Assembly: GCF_030291135.1 (NCBI RefSeq)
Contig: NZ_CP127409.1
Location: 62,001 to 126,000, forward strand
Source: Rhodanobacter thiooxydans
GTDB taxonomy: Bacteria; Pseudomonadota; Gammaproteobacteria; Xanthomonadales; Rhodanobacteraceae
DNA length: 64,000 bases
Direction: 5' to 3'
This document shows positions 4,465 through 34,535 of the stretch, piece by piece. Position numbers and translations under genes: made by a program. The stretch's first letter is position 1, and the number at the start of each line of letters is the position of its first letter. The notes below the pieces were generated by a model. That model did not search any database. It had not been told where the DNA came from and saw only the letters and a list, made by a program, of their open reading frames with translations.

Positions 4465-5556
4465 ATGCGCCTGCTGCTGCCATTGCTGCTGATCCTGTCG
4501 TCGCTGCCGGCGCTGGCCGCGCCGCCGCCGCTCGACCGGCTGACCCTGCCGAAGGGTTTCCACATCGCGGTGTATGCCGACCAGGTGCCGGACGCGCGCG
4601 AGATCGCGCTGGGCGCGAAGGGCACGGTGTTCGTCGGTTCCAACGATGCCGGCAAGGTCTATGCACTCACCGACACGAACGGCGACGGCGTCGCGGACAA
4701 GGTGCGGGTGATCGCCAGCGGCCTGCAGCTACCGGTGGGCGTGGCGTTCAAGGGGGGCGACCTGTACGTCTCCGCGGTGAGCCGCATCTACGTGCTGCGC
4801 GACATCGAGAACCACCTGGACGACCCGCCGAAGCCGGCGGTGATCACCGACAAGCTGCCCACCGAAACCCACCACGGCTGGAAGTTCATCGCATTCGGCC
4901 CGGACGGCAAGCTGTATGTGCCGATCGGTGCGCCGTGCAACATCTGCGACCCGGGCCCGGATCACGGCAAGCTGATCCGCATGAACGCCGACGGCAGCGG
5001 CTGGCAGGACGTGGCCCGCGGCATCCGCAACACGGTCGGCTTCGACTGGCAGCCGGGCACGAAGCGCCTGTGGTTCACCGACAACGGCCGCGACGAGATG
5101 GGCGACGACATGCCCAGCGACGAGTTGAACGAGATCACCCGCCCCGGCGAGCACTTCGGTTATCCGTACTGCCACCAGGGCGACACGCTCGACCCGGAAT
5201 TTGGCAAGGGTCACAGCTGCAAGGACTACGTGCCGCCGGTGCTGAAGCTGGGCGCACATGTGGCCTCGCTCGGCATGCGTTTCTACCAAGGCAGGCAGTT
5301 TCCGGCCAGCTACAAGGGCGCGATCCTCATCGCCGAACACGGCTCGTGGAACCGCACCAGGAAATCCGGCTACCGGGTGATGACGGTGCGTTTGAACGGC
5401 AGCAAGGTGGTCTCGTACGAACCGCTGGTCAGCGGCTTCGAGCAGGACGAAAGCGCCTGGGGCCGTCCGGCCGACGTGCAACCACTGCCCGACGGCAGCG
5501 TGCTGGTCAGCGATGACCTGGCCGGGGCGGTGTATCGGGTGACGTACAAGCCGTGA
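4465..5556 (+). CDS. PQQ-dependent sugar dehydrogenase (sorbosone dehydrogenase family), periplasmic
   Basis: 363 residues with a clear signal peptide (MRLLLPLLLILSSLPALAA). The mature protein is a six-bladed propeller of the sGDH/L-sorbosone dehydrogenase family: LPKGFHIAVYADQVPDAREIALG, then HHGWKFIAFGPDGKLYVPIGAPCNIC, FTDNGRDEMGDDMPSDELNEI and IAEHGSWNR. Family members oxidise aldoses or sorbosone in the periplasm using pyrroloquinoline quinone; the substrate here is not determined. A second, lipidated member is encoded at 30291-31610. No pqqABCDE genes occur in the window. A REP pair follows immediately downstream. Confidence 0.85.
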   Translation: MRLLLPLLLILSSLPALAAPPPLDRLTLPKGFHIAVYADQVPDAREIALGAKGTVFVGSNDAGKVYALTDTNGDGVADKVRVIASGLQLPVGVAFKGGDLYVSAVSRIYVLRDIENHLDDPPKPAVITDKLPTETHHGWKFIAFGPDGKLYVPIGAPCNICDPGPDHGKLIRMNADGSGWQDVARGIRNTVGFDWQPGTKRLWFTDNGRDEMGDDMPSDELNEITRPGEHFGYPYCHQGDTLDPEFGKGHSCKDYVPPVLKLGAHVASLGMRFYQGRQFPASYKGAILIAEHGSWNRTRKSGYRVMTVRLNGSKVVSYEPLVSGFEQDESAWGRPADVQPLPDGSVLVSDDLAGAVYRVTYKP

Positions 5557-24967: not shown

Positions 24968-26290
24968 TCAGAACGTCACCTGCGTATACAAACCGATGAC
25001 AAAGGCGTCGGGAATGTTGCCGGTGCCGCCCGGGCGGAAGACGTATTGCAGGTTCGGGCGCAGGGTCAGCCAGGGGGTGATCCTCGCGCCGTAGTCGATT
25101 TCGGCGATGCTTTCATAAGTCTGGATGCCGACGCTGCCGGGCGCCACGCTGTCACGGTCGCGCTGGTAGCGGGTCAGCCGCGGGTTGGTACGGCCGCTGG
25201 CGAGCATGAACGAGACCACGTCGTTGTCGCGGCCGGGGAAAGTGCCCTGATAGTGGCCGCCGATCACCCAGAAGTCGCGGAAGCGGGCGGTGGCCTTGTC
25301 GCCGACGCCGGCCATCAGGCCGAGGGTCAGGCCGCGGCTGGAGTTGGGGCCTTCGCGGTAGACCATGCGGTCGGCGATCACGTAGCCGCCGGAGCGGCCG
25401 TTGTGCTGCAGGAAGCCGGCGCCGGTGAGGCCGGCCGGCTGGCCGTTGACGTCGGTATACACGTCCGGCGTGCCGGCGGTGTTGTAGTACGCGCCGAGCT
25501 TGAGGTCGCCGGGCAGCTGGCCGGCGCCGCGACCGCTGCTCCAGCCCAGTTCGACCGGCACGAACACGCCGTGGTGCTTGAGGCTGAGGTTGAAGCCCTG
25601 GTCCTTGTTGCCGGCGTTGGGGTTGTTGAGATACGCGCCGACGCTGACGTAGAAGTTTGGCGTGGCGTGCCACTTCACGTGGCCGCCCCATTGCGCGGTA
25701 GGGAAGTTGTGCGCGCCGCTGTTGGTGGTCATCGCGTTGGCGTGGCCGCAGATGATGCCGTTCTGGAAATTGCAGAACGCCGGCAGCCGCGCGAAGTCGT
25801 CGCCCACCGGCGACCAGCCCAGTTCCGTGAAGACGCGGTGGTCGAGGAAATCCTGCTGCCAGTTCAGCTCGGCGAGGCGGAAATTCTGCCCCGCGCCATA
25901 CAGCTCCTGCACCGAGAACTGGTTGCCGATCGCATCGTTGCTGAGGCTGCGACCATCGCGTTCGGTGACGGTGAACTGGATCTTCGCGTTCGGCACGCCC
26001 CACAGCTTGTCGAGGTCGAAATCCGCGCCGGCGTCGAGTTGCTGGGTGTAGCGCGCGGTCTGCTCGTGGCCGCCAGAGAGGTTGCCCGCGCTTTCGGTGG
26101 CCCAGTGCGCGCGCAGGGTGATGCCATCGTCCTGCAGGCTGCTGCGCGTGCCGCCCCAGTCGCCGGTCAGCGTGGACCGGGTGAGCCAGCCATCGTTGCC
26201 GGTCGACTGCGCCATCGCCGGCAGCGTGCCCAGCCACAGCAGCATGCCGCCGAACACCAGGCCGCGGGTCGTGCAGGATGGATGGCGCAT
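24968..26290 (-). CDS. Carbohydrate-selective porin, OprB family
   Basis: 440 residues from ATG 26290; a signal peptide (MRHPSCTTRGLVFGGMLLWL..AMAQ) leads into WLTRSTLTGDWGGTRSSLQDDGITLRAHW, the OprB family opening. Later pieces (DFLDHRVFTELGWSPVGDDFARLPAFCNFQN, GGYVIADRMVY) and a terminal IGLYTQVTF are typical beta-barrel strands. OprB porins admit glucose and other sugars. It follows the cytochrome gene by 5 bp, as the last gene of the sugar-dehydrogenase operon, suggesting that it brings substrate to the dehydrogenase. Confidence 0.9.
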   Translation of the reverse strand: MRHPSCTTRGLVFGGMLLWLGTLPAMAQSTGNDGWLTRSTLTGDWGGTRSSLQDDGITLRAHWATESAGNLSGGHEQTARYTQQLDAGADFDLDKLWGVPNAKIQFTVTERDGRSLSNDAIGNQFSVQELYGAGQNFRLAELNWQQDFLDHRVFTELGWSPVGDDFARLPAFCNFQNGIICGHANAMTTNSGAHNFPTAQWGGHVKWHATPNFYVSVGAYLNNPNAGNKDQGFNLSLKHHGVFVPVELGWSSGRGAGQLPGDLKLGAYYNTAGTPDVYTDVNGQPAGLTGAGFLQHNGRSGGYVIADRMVYREGPNSSRGLTLGLMAGVGDKATARFRDFWVIGGHYQGTFPGRDNDVVSFMLASGRTNPRLTRYQRDRDSVAPGSVGIQTYESIAEIDYGARITPWLTLRPNLQYVFRPGGTGNIPDAFVIGLYTQVTF

Positions 26291-26295
26291 GAGGG

Positions 26296-27693
26296 TCAGG
26301 CCTGGCCGGAGGAAGGCCGGCGCCGTTTGCGCCGGAGCCACAGAACGATGATGGCAAGGAGCAGCAGCACCGCCAGCATCGCCAGCCGTACCAGGGCGAC
26401 CAGGTGCGATGGCGCGCCGCCGCTGCGCAGATTGGCGACCTGTGTTGCGGTGATCCGTGCGGCGGGGTTGCCATAACGCAGCGTCAGGTAATTGCCGAGG
26501 GTGGCGACCTGCTGATCGGACAGCGCGTGCGCGAAGCCCGGCATGCGCACGCCGGAGTCGCCGGTCTGCCAGCGGATGCCGTCGAGGATCACCAGCACCA
26601 GGTTGGCGGTGTCGGCGCGGCCGGTGGCGGTGTTGTGGAACAGCGGCGGCAGGCCGCCGTCGAAGCTGCCTTCACCGCTGGCCTGGTGGCAGCTGGCGCA
26701 GTGCGCGTCGTAGAGCTGCGCGCCACTCCACTGCTCCGCGTCGTCGGGCAGGGCGGTGCCGCGCTGGTCGGCGATCCCGTCGAACGCTGCGCCCCAGCCG
26801 TCGACGGGCCGGGTGTCGGCCGGGTCGTGTTGCGCGGGGACTGTCTTCAGGTAGGTGGCGATCGCCTGCAGGTCCGTCGGTTCGAGATGCTGCAGGCTGT
26901 GCTCGACCGCCTCGGCCATCGGCCCGGCTGCCTGCGCCTTGCCGCGGGCATGGCCGAGCCGCAGGTAGTCGACCAGCTCCTGTTCGCTCCAGTTGCCGAT
27001 GCCGCTGTTCGCATCGGACGTGATGTTCGGCGCGTGCCAGCTGCCGACCATGCCACCGGCCAATGCCTGCGACGGGCGTTCGGCCATCAGCAGGTTGCGT
27101 GGCGTGTGGCAGGTGCTGCAGTGGGCCAGCCCGCGTACCAGGTAGGCGCCGCGATTCCACACAGCGCTCTCGGCCGGGTCGGGTGTGAACGGCTGGCGGT
27201 CTAGGAACAGCAGGTTCCACGCCGCCATCGACAGGCGGATGTTGAACGGGAATGGCAGCCGGGTCGGCGCCGGTTTGCTGTCCACCGGCGCCACGCCGTG
27301 CATGAAGTACGCGTACAGCGCGTGCACGTCGTCGTCGGTGAGCTGCGCGTAGGCGGTGTACGGCATCGCCGGGTACAGGTGGGCGCCGTCGGCGCGGATG
27401 CCCTTGCGCACGGCGTCGCGGAACTGCGCCTCGCTGTAGTGGCCGATGCCGGCGCCGGTCGACGGCGTGATGTTGGTGCTGATGATGTTGCCGACCGGCG
27501 TGGGCACCGTCAGCCCGCCGGCGTACGGCTGGCCGCCGAGCACGGTATGGCAGGCCGCGCAGTCGCCCGCGGTGGCCAGGTACTGGCCACGTTGCAGCAG
27601 GGCGGCGTCGGCGTTGTCGGCGGCGCTGGCAGGCGTGGCGACGAGCAGGCCGAGCAGGGCGAGCAGCGGGATGCAGCGGATCAGCGCGTTCAT
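26296..27693 (-). CDS. Tri-haem cytochrome c subunit of a membrane FAD sugar dehydrogenase
   Basis: 465 residues. Signal peptide MNALIRCIPLLALLGLLVATPASA; three haem-binding CxxCH motifs: CAACH 45-49, CSTCH 192-196 and CASCH 332-336; and a C-terminal membrane helix (LAMLAVLLLLAIIVLWLRRKRR). This is the plan of the electron-transfer subunit of gluconate-2-, fructose- and sorbitol-dehydrogenases, passing electrons from FAD to ubiquinone. Its start overlaps the GMC gene stop by ATGA. Confidence 0.93.
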   Translation of the reverse strand: MNALIRCIPLLALLGLLVATPASAADNADAALLQRGQYLATAGDCAACHTVLGGQPYAGGLTVPTPVGNIISTNITPSTGAGIGHYSEAQFRDAVRKGIRADGAHLYPAMPYTAYAQLTDDDVHALYAYFMHGVAPVDSKPAPTRLPFPFNIRLSMAAWNLLFLDRQPFTPDPAESAVWNRGAYLVRGLAHCSTCHTPRNLLMAERPSQALAGGMVGSWHAPNITSDANSGIGNWSEQELVDYLRLGHARGKAQAAGPMAEAVEHSLQHLEPTDLQAIATYLKTVPAQHDPADTRPVDGWGAAFDGIADQRGTALPDDAEQWSGAQLYDAHCASCHQASGEGSFDGGLPPLFHNTATGRADTANLVLVILDGIRWQTGDSGVRMPGFAHALSDQQVATLGNYLTLRYGNPAARITATQVANLRSGGAPSHLVALVRLAMLAVLLLLAIIVLWLRRKRRRPSSGQA

Positions 27694-29347: not shown

Positions 29348-29875
29348 TCAGACGGGTTTGCCGGTCCAGCTGCCATAGCTGCCGTAGGCATAGGTCGGCG
29401 GCTTCAGCACGTCGGCCACGATCACCGCGTTGAGTGCGGTCTCGTAGGCGACGCAGCGCGCGCCTTCGCCGTTGCCGATCACGCCCAGCATCCAGGCACT
29501 CATGATCTGGCGCGGCAACGGCGCCAGCGACGAGTGCTCGCCGTCCAGCACGCCCTGCAATTGCAGCGGGTCGATGTGGCGTTCGTTGATCAGGGCCAGC
29601 AGCGCCTGCACGTCGGCCGAAAAGTTCGGATGGGCGGCGGCGAGGGCGTCGTGCAGGCGTGTCGCCTGCGCAGCATCCAGCGCCTGCCGACCCACCAGGA
29701 TTGCCGACAGCGCGGTAAACGCGCCGAGGTCGGCGCGCGGCGCCGGTTGCGCCAGCGCCCAGGGGATCAGCGAGGCGGTGTAGGCGGTGAGCAGGCCAGC
29801 CAGCAGGCGCCGCCGCGCAGGATCGGCAGGGGTATCGCACCGGGCGTCGATGCTCTCGGGCGGGTTCGTCGTCAT
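29348..29875 (-). CDS. Small (subunit 3) Tat-exported subunit of the sugar dehydrogenase
   Basis: 175 residues from ATG 29875. A twin-arginine signal (PARRRLLAGLLTAYTASLIPWALA) is followed by LGAFTALSAILVGRQALDAAQATRLHDAL and ...YETALNAVIVADVLKPPTYAYGSYGSW, matching gluconate-2-dehydrogenase subunit 3 / sorbitol-dehydrogenase small-subunit families. It acts as maturation and export partner of the GMC subunit. First gene of the operon small–GMC–cytochrome–porin. A longer frame to 29926 adds non-family residues. Confidence 0.88.
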   Translation of the reverse strand: MTTNPPESIDARCDTPADPARRRLLAGLLTAYTASLIPWALAQPAPRADLGAFTALSAILVGRQALDAAQATRLHDALAAAHPNFSADVQALLALINERHIDPLQLQGVLDGEHSSLAPLPRQIMSAWMLGVIGNGEGARCVAYETALNAVIVADVLKPPTYAYGSYGSWTGKPV

Positions 29876-30290
29876 GATGTTCCCCCAGGTTGATGCCCCT
29901 GCCCGGCAACTTGCCGGACTCGGCAACGCTACTCTGCTGCGGGCTCAACACAACGTGAAAAATCCGGGCCGGCGAAAGCCTCGGCGCGTGGTTGGCGCCT
30001 CACGAAAAGTAAAGGCATTGCCGGATTTTCTGCAGCATCGCCGCAGCCATGCTGACCGGAAAATCTTGCGGTATCTCCACCTCGCAGCGTGATGGCCCAC
30101 GACGGCGTCGATCCTTCCATCGATCGCGTCGAGCCGGGCGAGCATCGCCGACCGCGCGGCATACAACGTGGTGCCGCGGGCGGAGCCGTTGGTCTGTCGT
30201 CATGAGGCGTGGCCGGCGTTCGCCGGCCACGCGAGTGGCGAGGTCATCAGTGTGGGGCCAGTCACTGACCGGCTGGCTCCGCGCCGGTGT
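29876..30290. other. Non-coding gap with a strong hairpin
   Basis: 415 bp between the sugar-dehydrogenase operon start and the PQQ lipoprotein stop. Short open frames exist but none has a ribosome site or family likeness. At 30208-30231 CGTGGCCGGCG pairs with CGCCGGCCACG (11 bp, 2-nt loop), placed to end the minus-strand PQQ dehydrogenase message. The rest should hold the promoter of the dehydrogenase operon; I see no clear -35/-10. Confidence 0.45.
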
Positions 30291-31610
30291 TCAGGGCGAG
30301 GCAGCGGTGACGCGCCAGACCGCGTCGCCCACATCGTCTGCGATCAGCAGTGCGCCGTCCTTGTCCTGCGCCAACCCGACCGGTGCACCGTACAGCTGCG
30401 ATTCGTCGTCCGAGTAAAAGCCGGTGACGAGCGGTTCGGGCACGCCGGTCGGCTTGCCGTCCACGAACGCGACATGGACGACGGCGTAGCCGCTCAGTGG
30501 CGAGCGGTCCCAGCTGCCATGCTCGCTGACGAAGGCCCCGTTGTGATACTTCTCCGGCAGCGCGTTGCTGTCCGAGAACAGCAGCCCGAGCGCGGCGACG
30601 TGCGAGCCCAGCGCATAGTCGGGCTTGATCGCCTTCGCCACCAGGTCGGGCCGCTGCGGCATGACGCGGCTGTCCACGTGCTGGCCGTAGTAGCTGTACG
30701 GCCAGCCGTAGAAGCCACCTTCCTTCACCGAGGTCAGGTAGTCAGGCACCAGGTCCGCGCCGATCTCGTCGCGCTCGTTGACGATCGCCCAGAGCTTGCC
30801 CGTATGCGGCTCGATCTGCAGCCCGGTCGGGTTGCGGATGCCTGAGGCGTAGATGCGACTGCTGGCGCTGGCCACGTCCACCTCCAGCACGTTCGCGCGC
30901 CGGTATTCCTGGTCGATGCCGTTCTCGGTGATGTTGCTGTTGGAACCGACGCCGACGTACAGCTTGCGGCCGTCCGGGCTGGCCACCAGTGCCTTGGTCC
31001 AGTGGTGGTTGATGGTGGCCGGCAGGTCGGTGAATTCCACGCCGGGTGTGGTGATCTGCGTTTCGCCGGTGACGTACGGGAACTTCACGATCGCGTCGGT
31101 GTTGGCCACGTACAGAGTGTCGCCGATCAGCGCCACGCCGAACGGCGAGTGCAGGTGCTCGATGAAGACGTGCTTCTCCCACTCGCCACCGGCGTTGCCG
31201 GTGTGGCGCAGCAGGGTGATCCGGTTGCCGCCTTTCGCACCCTTGCCCGAGAGGTTCTTGACCTTGTTGGCGATCAGCTGCTTCGGCGTGGTCACCGGCT
31301 CGGAGCCGGGGCCGTTGGATTCCACTACCAGGATGTCGCCGTTGGGGAGGGTGTAAAGCTGGCGCGGGTGCATGAGTCCGCTGGCGATCTTTTCGATCCT
31401 GAGCCCGGCCGCCACCTTCGGCGCCTGGCCCTGCTGCCAGCCGGCATAGCGGGGAACCTGCATCGGCGGGACCAGGAAGTTGCGGGCGCCGGGCAGCGGC
31501 GGGGCGTCGCCCGACTGCTGCGCGGGTTGATACGACGCCTTCCCGCTGCATGCCGCCAGAATCACCCCGAAGACCAATGCCAGCACACTGCGAAGGACGA
31601 TCTTATTCAT
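30291..31610 (-). CDS. PQQ-type sugar (sorbosone family) dehydrogenase, lipoprotein
   Basis: 439 residues. Lipoprotein signal MNKIVLRSVLALVFGVILAAC (lipobox LAAC), then a propeller of the sorbosone/sGDH family: LRIEKIASGLMHPRQLYTLPNGDILVVESN, KNLSGKGAKGGNRITLLRHT, NHHWTKALVASPDGRKLYVGVGSNSNI, NPTGLQIEPHTGKLWAIVNERDEIGADLVPDYL, FVSEHGSWDRSPLSGY. It is about 75 residues longer than the 4465-5556 paralogue. Probably anchored to a membrane on the periplasmic side. Its start overlaps the DUF2231 gene stop by 8 bp, so the two are co-translated. Confidence 0.9.
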   Translation of the reverse strand: MNKIVLRSVLALVFGVILAACSGKASYQPAQQSGDAPPLPGARNFLVPPMQVPRYAGWQQGQAPKVAAGLRIEKIASGLMHPRQLYTLPNGDILVVESNGPGSEPVTTPKQLIANKVKNLSGKGAKGGNRITLLRHTGNAGGEWEKHVFIEHLHSPFGVALIGDTLYVANTDAIVKFPYVTGETQITTPGVEFTDLPATINHHWTKALVASPDGRKLYVGVGSNSNITENGIDQEYRRANVLEVDVASASSRIYASGIRNPTGLQIEPHTGKLWAIVNERDEIGADLVPDYLTSVKEGGFYGWPYSYYGQHVDSRVMPQRPDLVAKAIKPDYALGSHVAALGLLFSDSNALPEKYHNGAFVSEHGSWDRSPLSGYAVVHVAFVDGKPTGVPEPLVTGFYSDDESQLYGAPVGLAQDKDGALLIADDVGDAVWRVTAASP

Positions 31611-32046
31611 GGATGTACTCCTTCGCTGCAGAGTGCTGCACGGCCATCACGAGGTGGGCGATGGCCAGCAGGATGACCGTGCATACCGAGAGCCATACGC
31701 CGGTGGGAACCACTGCGTAGGCGTCGCGGCTGTGCACGAACGCATTGAAGATCGCCGCGACGATGGCAAACAGGTTGAGCCAGAAGTCCAGCTTGTCCGC
31801 AGGTCGGGCGATATATCGCGAGGTGATCCAGACCTGGGCGAGGTTGACGAGGCGCGGGATGATCGCGAGCAGCAGGCCGAACACGATCAGCCAGGCGGCG
31901 CCCTTGTTCCACAACACGCCGGCGGTCCGCATATAGAGGATGTCGAAAATCAGCGCGGCGACAAAGAAGCCGAACGGAAGGGGGTTGAGCAGGCCATAGA
32001 TGGCGTTGGCCAGGGTGGAGCGATGCGGTGCGACGCGCGAGTTCAC
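31603..32046 (-). CDS. DUF2231 four-helix membrane protein
   Basis: 147 residues with four hydrophobic helices (NPLPFGFFVAALIFDILYM, AAWLIVFGLLLAIIPRLV, LDFWLNLFAIVAAIFNAFVHSRD and VWLSVCTVILLAIAHLVMA). The pattern with N-terminal HP.P..F and central FVHSRDA is DUF2231. Such proteins often sit beside PQQ sorbosone dehydrogenases and may pass electrons onward (inference from context). First gene of the pair; its promoter faces the TonB receptor gene. Confidence 0.85.
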   Translation of the reverse strand: MNSRVAPHRSTLANAIYGLLNPLPFGFFVAALIFDILYMRTAGVLWNKGAAWLIVFGLLLAIIPRLVNLAQVWITSRYIARPADKLDFWLNLFAIVAAIFNAFVHSRDAYAVVPTGVWLSVCTVILLAIAHLVMAVQHSAAKEYIHE

Positions 32047-32213
32047 GGGCAGCTACCTCTGCGGGAAGGATGCTATGGGCGGCGAGAACGATCTGCGCAG
32101 GAGCCGGTGGAGGGGCGGCCATCGGGCGCTCTGCCGGTCCCCCCACCCACACTTCCGGGCCTCCGGCAACACCGGAAATCGTGGCCCGCCGCTCGGGATA
32201 TTGGGAGTAACAG

Positions 32214-32258
32214 CGTGACGCGTTCGTGACACGCCTTGCCGTCGGAGCTTCGTGACAC
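32214..32258. promoter_or_regulatory. Three CGTGACRC direct repeats in the divergent promoter
   Basis: CGTGACGC at 32214 and CGTGACAC at 32225 and 32251; the last two extend to TTCGTGACAC. They lie just upstream of the TonB receptor start and in the control region shared with DUF2231–PQQ dehydrogenase. Direct repeats of this sort may be an operator, but the regulator is unknown. Confidence 0.35.
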
Positions 32259-32267
32259 ACTGGTGGC

Positions 32268-34535
32268 ATGTGTCCGCGTGTCCTCGATTATTCCGCCCCG
32301 GCTTTCGTCGCGTCGGCTTTGCCCGGGGGCGGTTCCGGGCCGGGTGGCGGTTCGTCCGATCGTGCCCCCGCTGGCAGAGTTGCGGTCCGCTGGCCGGTCG
32401 TCGCGATCCTGCTTTGCCTGGGGTTCGCCCAGCAACGGGTTGTCGCCCAAGAGCCCGTGCCGGCGAGGGTTGACCCGGCCCGTACGGCGCCGCCGACCTT
32501 GCCCGCGGTGCAGGTCACTGCGATCCGCATGGACATTCCCCCGTTCGACCTGCCCGCCGCGCTCAGCATGGTGCAGATCGATCCCGCCGCATCCGGCCAG
32601 CCGGGCGTGAACCTTTCCGAGTCGCTGGTCGGCGTGCCGGGCATCCTTGCGCGTGACCGGCAGAACTATGCGCAGGACGTGCAGATCTCGATCCGCGGCT
32701 TCGGTTCGCGCGCAACTTTCGGCGTGCGCAGCATCCGCCTGTATGTGGACGGCATCCCGGCGACCTTGCCGGACGGGCAGGGCCAGGTCTCGCACTTCAA
32801 CTTCGATTCGGCCGACCGCGTCGAGGTACTGCGCGGCCCGTTCTCGGTGCTCTACGGCAATGCCGCCGGCGGTGTGGTGCAGCTGTGGAGCGCGGAAGGC
32901 ACGCCGGTGCCGGTGACCACGCTGGGCGTGAACGCCGGCAGCCACGACACCTTCCGCACCAGCGTCGACACGCGCGGCACGCTGGGGCCGGTCGACTACA
33001 ACGTCGCCGGCTCGCTGTTCCTTTCCGGCGGCTATCGGCGGCACAGCCGGGTGCGCCGCGAATCGGACAACGCCCGATTCGGGGTGGACCTGGGCGACGG
33101 GAAGAAGCTCACCATCGTGGCGAACCGCCTGAACCAGCCGGTGTCGCAGGATCCGCTCGGCCTCACTCGCGCGCAGGTCGACGTCGATCCGCGACAGGTC
33201 GCCGCGGTCGCCATCCAGTACGACACGCGCAAGCGCATCGAGCAGAACCAGCTGGGCGCCATCTACGAGCAGCCGCTGGACGGCGACGACCAGGTGCGGG
33301 TGATGGGCTACTTCGGCCAGCGCAACATCGCGCAGTACCAGTCGATCCCGGTGAGCGCCCAGCGAAGCCCGTTGTCGGCGGGCGGCGTGGTGGCGCTGGA
33401 TACCGACTACGGCGGCCTCGACGCGCGCTGGACCCGCACTGGCCAGCTGGCCGGTCGCGACGTCGAGTTCGTGCTGGGCGTGAGTGCCGACGGGCAATGG
33501 CAGCATCGCCGCGGCTACGAGAACTTCGTCGGTGACACGCTGGGGGTGACCGGCGCGTTGCGCCGGAACGAGGACGACAATGTCGACAGCGTCGACGAGT
33601 ACGCGCAGTGGTACTGGCACTTCGCCGAACGATGGTCGCTGCTGCTCGGCATGCGACATGACGACGTGCGCTTCCGCGCACGCGACCACTACGTCACGGC
33701 GACCAATCCGGACGACAGCGGCGGGGTGAACTACACGGCCACCACGCCGGTGCTCGGGCTGGGCTTCCGGCCCAGCGACGACCTGCGGCTCTACGCCAGC
33801 TACGGCAAGGGTTTCGAAACGCCGAGCTTCAACGAACTCGGCTACCGCAGCGATGACCGGCCTGGCCTGGCCTTCGACCTGCGTCCGGCACGCAGCCGCA
33901 ACCTGGAGCTGGGTGCCAAGTGGCAGGTCACGCGTGCACTGGCCTTCGACACGGCGGTGTTCCGCGCCGATACGCGCGACGAGCTGGCGGTCAGGACCAG
34001 CCAGGGCGGCCGTTCCACCTACCAGAATGTCGGCGACACGCGGCGCCAGGGCGTCGAGTCGTCCCTGACCGGGCAGCTTGCCGACGACTGGCAGATCAGC
34101 GCCGGCTTCACCCGCCTGCAGGCACGTTTCCGCAGTGCGTTCCTCGCCTGCCGGGCCACACCCTGCACCGCGGTCAGCACGCCGGTGGCCGCGGGTACCC
34201 GCATGCCGGGCGTGCCCGAAAACTATGGTTCCTTGCGCATCCGGCACGGCGGCGAGCTGGGCTGGCATGAAAGCCTGGACCTGACCGGCGTGGGTGCGGT
34301 CAGCGTCAACGACACCGGCACCGATCGTGCGGCCGGCTATGGCTTGCTGGGTGTCGACGCCGGCTACACCTTTGCCTTGGGCAAGGACACGCGACTGCAG
34401 CTCAGCGCCCGCGTGGACAACCTCGGCAACCGCCGCTACATCGGCTCGGTGATCGTCAACGACAGCAACGGGCGCTATTTCGAACCTGGCCCTGGCCGCA
34501 CCTGGATGCTGGGGGCGCGCCTGGTTTTCCACTGA
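32268..34535 (+). CDS. TonB-dependent receptor, PqqU/YncD-like
   Basis: 755 residues. After a long N-terminus with a hydrophobic stretch (PVVAILLCLGFAQQRVVAQ) come the plug (VNLSESLVGVPGILARDRQNYAQDVQISIRGFGSRATFGVR, then LYVDGIPATLPDGQGQ and VEVLRGPFSVLYGNAAGGVV) and a 22-strand barrel ending MLGARLVFH. The plug text is close to that of E. coli YncD, since shown to import PQQ and renamed PqqU. The neighbouring divergent PQQ dehydrogenase supports PQQ as ligand (inference). The start is uncertain: 32268 gives an unusually long pre-signal region, and the true start may be further in. Confidence 0.85.
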   Translation: MCPRVLDYSAPAFVASALPGGGSGPGGGSSDRAPAGRVAVRWPVVAILLCLGFAQQRVVAQEPVPARVDPARTAPPTLPAVQVTAIRMDIPPFDLPAALSMVQIDPAASGQPGVNLSESLVGVPGILARDRQNYAQDVQISIRGFGSRATFGVRSIRLYVDGIPATLPDGQGQVSHFNFDSADRVEVLRGPFSVLYGNAAGGVVQLWSAEGTPVPVTTLGVNAGSHDTFRTSVDTRGTLGPVDYNVAGSLFLSGGYRRHSRVRRESDNARFGVDLGDGKKLTIVANRLNQPVSQDPLGLTRAQVDVDPRQVAAVAIQYDTRKRIEQNQLGAIYEQPLDGDDQVRVMGYFGQRNIAQYQSIPVSAQRSPLSAGGVVALDTDYGGLDARWTRTGQLAGRDVEFVLGVSADGQWQHRRGYENFVGDTLGVTGALRRNEDDNVDSVDEYAQWYWHFAERWSLLLGMRHDDVRFRARDHYVTATNPDDSGGVNYTATTPVLGLGFRPSDDLRLYASYGKGFETPSFNELGYRSDDRPGLAFDLRPARSRNLELGAKWQVTRALAFDTAVFRADTRDELAVRTSQGGRSTYQNVGDTRRQGVESSLTGQLADDWQISAGFTRLQARFRSAFLACRATPCTAVSTPVAAGTRMPGVPENYGSLRIRHGGELGWHESLDLTGVGAVSVNDTGTDRAAGYGLLGVDAGYTFALGKDTRLQLSARVDNLGNRRYIGSVIVNDSNGRYFEPGPGRTWMLGARLVFH

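Follow-up and report, generated by a model that had tools for sequence, protein, structure and literature searches.

Scavenging of pyrroloquinoline quinone (PQQ) via the TonB-dependent receptor PqqU is already established for bacteria that do not produce this cofactor (PMC12124388). PqqU/YncD from Escherichia coli serves an organism without PQQ synthesis, whose published PQQ user, Gcd, is an unlinked 8-bladed enzyme. In strain K-12 (L141 2964-6369), pqqU is divergent from yncE, which encodes a PQQ-like domain protein, i.e., another propeller placed back to back with PqqU. A 2025 survey recorded no PQQ enzyme in 33% of PqqU genomes, Arenimonas and Nitrosomonadaceae among those named; it searched PF01011, PF13360, PF13570, and one published dehydrogenase model, with PF07995 not stated (PMC12124388). 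A different type of PQQ enzyme is described from fungi, where the AA12 proteins CcPDH and TrAA12 (6jt5/6jwf and 6i1t; PMC6881789 and PMC6881810) combine a six-bladed propeller and its PQQ/Ca residues with cytochrome b and cellulose-binding domains. Here, we analyze a 64,000-nucleotide stretch of the Rhodanobacter thiooxydans contig NZ_CP127409.1 (positions 62,001 to 126,000; “the window”), in which a PqqU-type receptor gene lies opposite a two-gene unit encoding a DUF2231 protein and a glucose/sorbosone dehydrogenase family protein (GSDH) of AA12-like type. We regard it as quite probable that this locus lets a PQQ auxotroph both scavenge the cofactor and use it.

The receptor gene encodes 755 amino acids if translation begins at its first ATG, although the actual start codon may lie farther downstream, and contains both the plug and the barrel domains of TonB receptors. 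Its likeness to YncD/PqqU, noted in a first-pass annotation of the window, was confirmed. The top curated model was PqqU (NF041535; 669 bits, E value 7e-201), with the second-best TonB model at 162 bits, and the nearest solved structures were those of E. coli YncD/PqqU, 6v81 and 9c4o (~533 bits), with the next structure at 69 bits. The receptor is 41% identical to the E. coli protein; in an alignment with K-12 PqqU, the PQQ contacts were the same at 10 of the 11 positions checked (K274, R304, R365, and R536 in E. coli numbering among them), the sole change being Y99F. The PqqU signature of Munder et al. 2025, Y/F/W99 plus R304 plus R365 (PMC12124388), is present as F151, R352, and R414, and the K274E change, a variant discussed by the same authors (PMC12124388), was absent from the aligned receptor. 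In FhuA, BtuB, FepA, and Fiu, only a few of these contacts are present. In an IQ-TREE phylogeny of 45 receptors, a check that the first-pass annotation had proposed, the receptor grouped with E. coli PqqU on a 100/99 branch setting both off from FhuA, BtuB, FepA, and Fiu; the tree has long outgroup branches and includes no copper receptor. On the score gap, the contact residues, and the tree, a siderophore or B12 receptor was rejected. The NCBI equivalog cutoff of NF041535 (1,200 bits) was missed here, as it was in all of the >600 genomes searched in these groups, although E. coli passes it; by sequence, therefore, the receptor is classed as a member of the wider PqqU family, outside NCBI’s narrow equivalog.

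The genome is a single complete contig of 3.52 Mb. No pqq synthesis genes had been noted in the window, and the observation extends to the entire genome, where neither pqqC nor pqqE was found (no separate search was made for pqqA, B, D, and F). As a positive control, the same search detected pqqC in five of the 118 genomes of the family labeled f1, only a few compared with the 74 that have PqqU. With PqqU present and pqqC and pqqE absent from a complete contig, the Rhodanobacter genome apparently belongs to a PQQ-scavenging auxotroph. In contrast to E. coli, no 8-bladed quinoprotein was detected in it by TIGR03075, and a hidden classical quinoprotein was rejected, the single PF01011 match being a 403-amino-acid BamB (TIGR03300, 401 bits). 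The models of the 2025 survey (PF01011/PF13360/PF13570), of which PF01011 alone was searched in this analysis, would be expected to show only BamB here. This leaves the GSDH-type enzymes as the only candidate PQQ users found in this genome.

The first-pass annotation had called the gene product opposite the receptor a PQQ dehydrogenase. This stands insofar as the AA12 residues, the fold, and the linkage that recurs in other lineages make PQQ use by GSDH plausible, but the protein does not belong to the classical 8-bladed dehydrogenases, nor is it a typical soluble glucose dehydrogenase (sGDH). A lipobox, LAAC, at its N terminus makes a periplasmic lipoprotein probable. For CcPDH, the residues that bind PQQ and Ca were listed by Takeda et al. 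2019 (PMC6881789), and a profile alignment of GSDH to chain 6jt5 (constant offset, 239) equated CcPDH R273, H363, R430, N431, D451, H539, H560, and W563 with GSDH R83, H203, R259, N260, D281, H337, H364, and W367. The set includes H363, the catalytic His of CcPDH (PMC6881789), as well as the AA12-specific second His (H560) and Trp563, and all eight side chains were invariant in 28 GSDH homologues. CcPDH N564, which binds through its backbone amide, is Asp368 in GSDH and Asn in many homologues, and R433 is the likely counterpart of CcPDH R621, which falls outside the printed alignment. With an AlphaFold2 model of GSDH built from nine sequences (pLDDT 75, pTM 0.79), the four top Foldseek matches were all AA12 (E values 7e-21 to 5e-20). 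Acinetobacter sGDH and E. coli Asd/YliI share the PF07995 fold, the catalytic His, and the PQQ-binding Arg with GSDH but ranked below as weaker structural matches, the putative PQQ site of GSDH being of the AA12 and not the sGDH type; GSDH also scores far below the TIGR03606 cutoff. Unlike the fungal AA12 enzymes, the predicted bacterial lipoprotein lacks the cytochrome b and cellulose-binding domains and is paired with a DUF2231 protein.

As claimed in the first-pass annotation, the receptor is divergent from a DUF2231-dehydrogenase operon (32046-30291, minus strand), in which the two genes overlap. A DUF2231 gene was found immediately 5′ of all close GSDH relatives examined (at least 73% identity; 12 genomes including this one) and before the GSDH of one more distant relative (G042), but before none of the other ~50%-identical relatives. 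Within family f1, PqqU has a GSDH gene next to it in G117 (in the divergent layout seen here), Rhodanobacter sp. B05 (G081; same strand), G042, and G065. A cytochrome c-GSDH fusion is divergent from PqqU in both G065 (L024 4542-6227) and Dyella japonica (L064 6040-7716). Four genomes of a second family, f108, have GSDH within 1.3 kb of PqqU (chance of ~1.6e-6 for 4 of 69). In Stagnimonas and Noviherbaspirillum, the GSDH stop overlaps the longest PqqU reading frame; in Lysobacter lactosilyticus, the two genes are separated by 75 bp; and in Polaromonas, GSDH, cytochrome c, and PqqU genes are consecutive. The scan of named genomes that yielded these cases and Dyella also placed GSDH next to PqqU in a betaproteobacterium. 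The GSDH proteins of Dyella, G065, and Polaromonas are of more distant types. To account for the linkage, the PqqU tree requires nine changes, eight of them forced by well-supported branches, indicating that it arose or was lost repeatedly. Twelve other f1 genomes have an 8-bladed PQQ dehydrogenase within ~2 kb of PqqU instead of GSDH; by gene order, GSDH thus holds the place of the putative client beside the receptor.

The GSDH subtype also co-occurs with PqqU. In family f1 it was present in 31 of 74 PqqU-positive versus 3 of 44 PqqU-negative genomes (P = 4e-5), compared with 43/74 versus 1/44 for 8-bladed quinoproteins (P = 6e-11) and 57/74 versus 4/44 for either one (P = 1.5e-13). Among the 31 PqqU-positive f1 genomes without an 8-bladed enzyme, 14 carry the GSDH subtype. 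The figures for f108 (251 genomes) were 69/140 versus 5/111 (P = 3e-16), and for the genus of the window, four of four PqqU-positive versus none of four PqqU-negative genomes. At the class level, where sampling was sparse with only 16 PqqU genomes, the subtype occurred in 6/16 versus 14/258 (P = 4e-4). Relatedness is not removed by these tests; the comparison within the genus gave the same picture as both families, and the PqqU-GSDH pairing is not due to chance. For the more distant GSDH type, including the cytochrome c fusion, there was no association by presence (11/74 versus 7/44, P = 1). Some PqqU-positive relatives lack both an 8-bladed quinoprotein and the GSDH subtype, namely G068, G054, G028, G040, G019, G082, G078, G013, G030, and G087, among others.

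Downstream (3′) of the DUF2231-GSDH unit follow, in order, genes for a FAD-dependent sorbitol dehydrogenase (FAD-SLDH) small subunit, a GMC subunit, a multidomain cytochrome c, and an OprB porin (Table 1), an arrangement that has the look of a periplasmic sugar-oxidation cluster. The OprB and FAD-SLDH/GMC/cytochrome c cassette of Rhodanobacter sp. B05 (L061) is rearranged yet still linked to GSDH and PqqU. In the intergenic region, no terminator was found and no sigma-70 match scored above background, and the best Fur box match (10/19) was at the level of random window stretches, on which ground iron control of the locus was rejected. A direct repeat of TTCGTGACAC (32223-32232 and 32249-32258, spaced 26 bp) lies just upstream of pqqU. 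The pair recurs with one change in G117 (L021) and in none of the other relatives checked, so that TTCGTGACAC was rejected as a general pqqU operator; as an operator of this locus the repeat is possible but speculative.

Table 1. Features of the PqqU-GSDH locus and of the GSDH paralogue in the window
Feature	Position	Strand	Basis
PqqU-family TonB-dependent PQQ receptor (predicted)	32268..34535	+	NF041535; 6v81/9c4o; PQQ contacts; clade with E. coli PqqU
Divergent intergenic region common to the DUF2231-GSDH operon and pqqU	32047..32267	.	Partly conserved in G117
Tandem TTCGTGACAC repeat, possible operator (speculative)	32223..32258	+	Copies at 32223 and 32249
DUF2231 membrane protein, overlaps GSDH gene, candidate membrane partner	31603..32046	-	PF09990; upstream of close GSDH relatives
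GSDH, AA12-like six-bladed dehydrogenase, lipoprotein signal LAAC, 439 aa	30291..31610	-	PF07995, 56 bits; AA12 residues; fold
FAD-dependent sorbitol dehydrogenase-type small subunit	29348..29926	-	PF12318, 138 bits
GMC-family FAD dehydrogenase large subunit, 547 aa	27690..29333	-	PF05199/PF00732
Cytochrome c subunit, 465 aa, three cytochrome c stretches	26296..27693	-	PF00034
OprB carbohydrate-selective porin	24968..26341	-	PF04966, 336 bits
Distant GSDH paralogue (31% identical), unlinked to pqqU	4465..5556	+	PF07995, 66 bits; PQQ-type residues

From the receptor family and its binding residues, the lack of pqqC, pqqE, and 8-bladed quinoproteins, the AA12 residues and fold, and the recurrent linkage, all observed by computation, we infer PQQ transport, PQQ binding by GSDH, the activity, substrate, and electron route of the enzyme, and co-regulation. 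External PQQ, made and leaked by neighbors, would be bound by the PqqU receptor and moved into the periplasm with TonB energy, where the lipoprotein GSDH, a six-bladed propeller of AA12 type, would take it up together with Ca2+. The enzyme would then oxidize an aldose, a related sugar, or an aldehyde outside the cytoplasmic membrane, with a cytochrome c or the DUF2231 partner probably handing its electrons on to the respiratory chain, and the adjacent FAD dehydrogenase, cytochrome c, and OprB porin would probably form part of the same periplasmic sugar-oxidation module. The earlier suggestion that the cell lives partly on PQQ made by its neighbors is consistent with the PqqU-type receptor, the missing pqqC and pqqE, and the plausible enzyme. 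Its second half, that uptake is tied to need, fared less well, with no Fur box and the TTCGTGACAC repeat as the only hint.

Several observations weigh against a PQQ-scavenging and PQQ-using locus with GSDH as the client. The AA12 match of GSDH is distant (~20% identity), and the Pfam TrAA12 model gave no match for GSDH and 18 bits for a close relative against a cutoff of 30.9, which is why we use the name AA12-like rather than AA12. The GSDH subtype occurs without PqqU in three f1 and five f108 genomes, and 17 of the 31 PqqU-positive f1 genomes without an 8-bladed enzyme lack it. The main caution on inferring function from residues alone comes from the second gene that the first-pass annotation had listed as a PQQ enzyme, at position 4465. 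It does encode another GSDH-type protein with the same AA12-type PQQ residues; relatives of it, however, are present in the majority of the family's genomes, some of which have neither PqqU nor pqqC. Either PQQ reaches such carriers by diffusion or a protein can show the residue pattern without depending on PQQ, so that these residues may not suffice, and the tie of the 4465 enzyme to PQQ uptake is weaker than that of the pqqU-adjacent GSDH.

The alternative that best survives, though it is unlikely, is that PqqU does import PQQ, but not for the adjacent GSDH, which would have another cofactor or role, while the PQQ would go to another protein (the paralogue at 4465, for instance) or serve as an antioxidant, a role raised by Munder et al. 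(PMC12124388). PF07995-like folds do include nondehydrogenases, Hedgehog-interacting protein being among the Foldseek matches of GSDH, and paralogues of the 4465 type with the same residues are common where no PQQ source is visible. Nonetheless, the invariance of the eight mapped side chains in the 28 homologues, the repeated independent linkage and co-occurrence with PqqU, and the presence of a cytochrome c fused (Dyella) or adjacent (Polaromonas) to GSDH argue for GSDH as the client. A mobile or inherited sugar-oxidation island of porin, FAD dehydrogenase, and GSDH, in which PqqU is merely a neighbor with no direct functional tie to GSDH, would fit the way OprB, FAD dehydrogenase, GSDH, and PqqU remain together but rearranged between relatives; it is very unlikely, however, as PqqU and GSDH, with or without a cytochrome c, are the whole visible unit in Stagnimonas, Noviherbaspirillum, Lysobacter, and Polaromonas, and the presence of the two is correlated even where they are unlinked. 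That the receptor imports a siderophore, copper chelate, or cobalamin, as could be argued from the fact that TonB receptors alike in sequence can differ in substrate and from the missed 1,200-bit cutoff, is scarcely credible given the ~500-bit gap to any other receptor model, the PQQ contacts absent from FhuA, BtuB, FepA, and Fiu, the tree placement with E. coli PqqU, and the lack of a Fur box.

Here, a complete PqqU genome without pqqC, pqqE, or classical quinoproteins has a candidate client divergent from the receptor, and the pair recurs in other lineages. In a paper collection that was incomplete, we found nothing relevant tying PqqU to sorbosone/GSDH or AA12-type enzymes. The data suggest that the GSDH/AA12-like class supplies part of the missing PqqU clients, although not all of them, since the subtype is lacking in the 17 f1 genomes mentioned above. 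We favor, with some reservation, the broader view that AA12-like GSDH are widespread, unrecognized PqqU clients in a good part of the PqqU bacteria that appear clientless, recruited beside PqqU several times independently. If true, bacterial PQQ use would extend to a large family mostly annotated just as “sorbosone dehydrogenase,” and the question left by the survey, i.e., what many PqqU bacteria do with PQQ, would become a concrete gene list. That the pairing recurs in unrelated bacteria suggests that a group of PQQ users has been overlooked.

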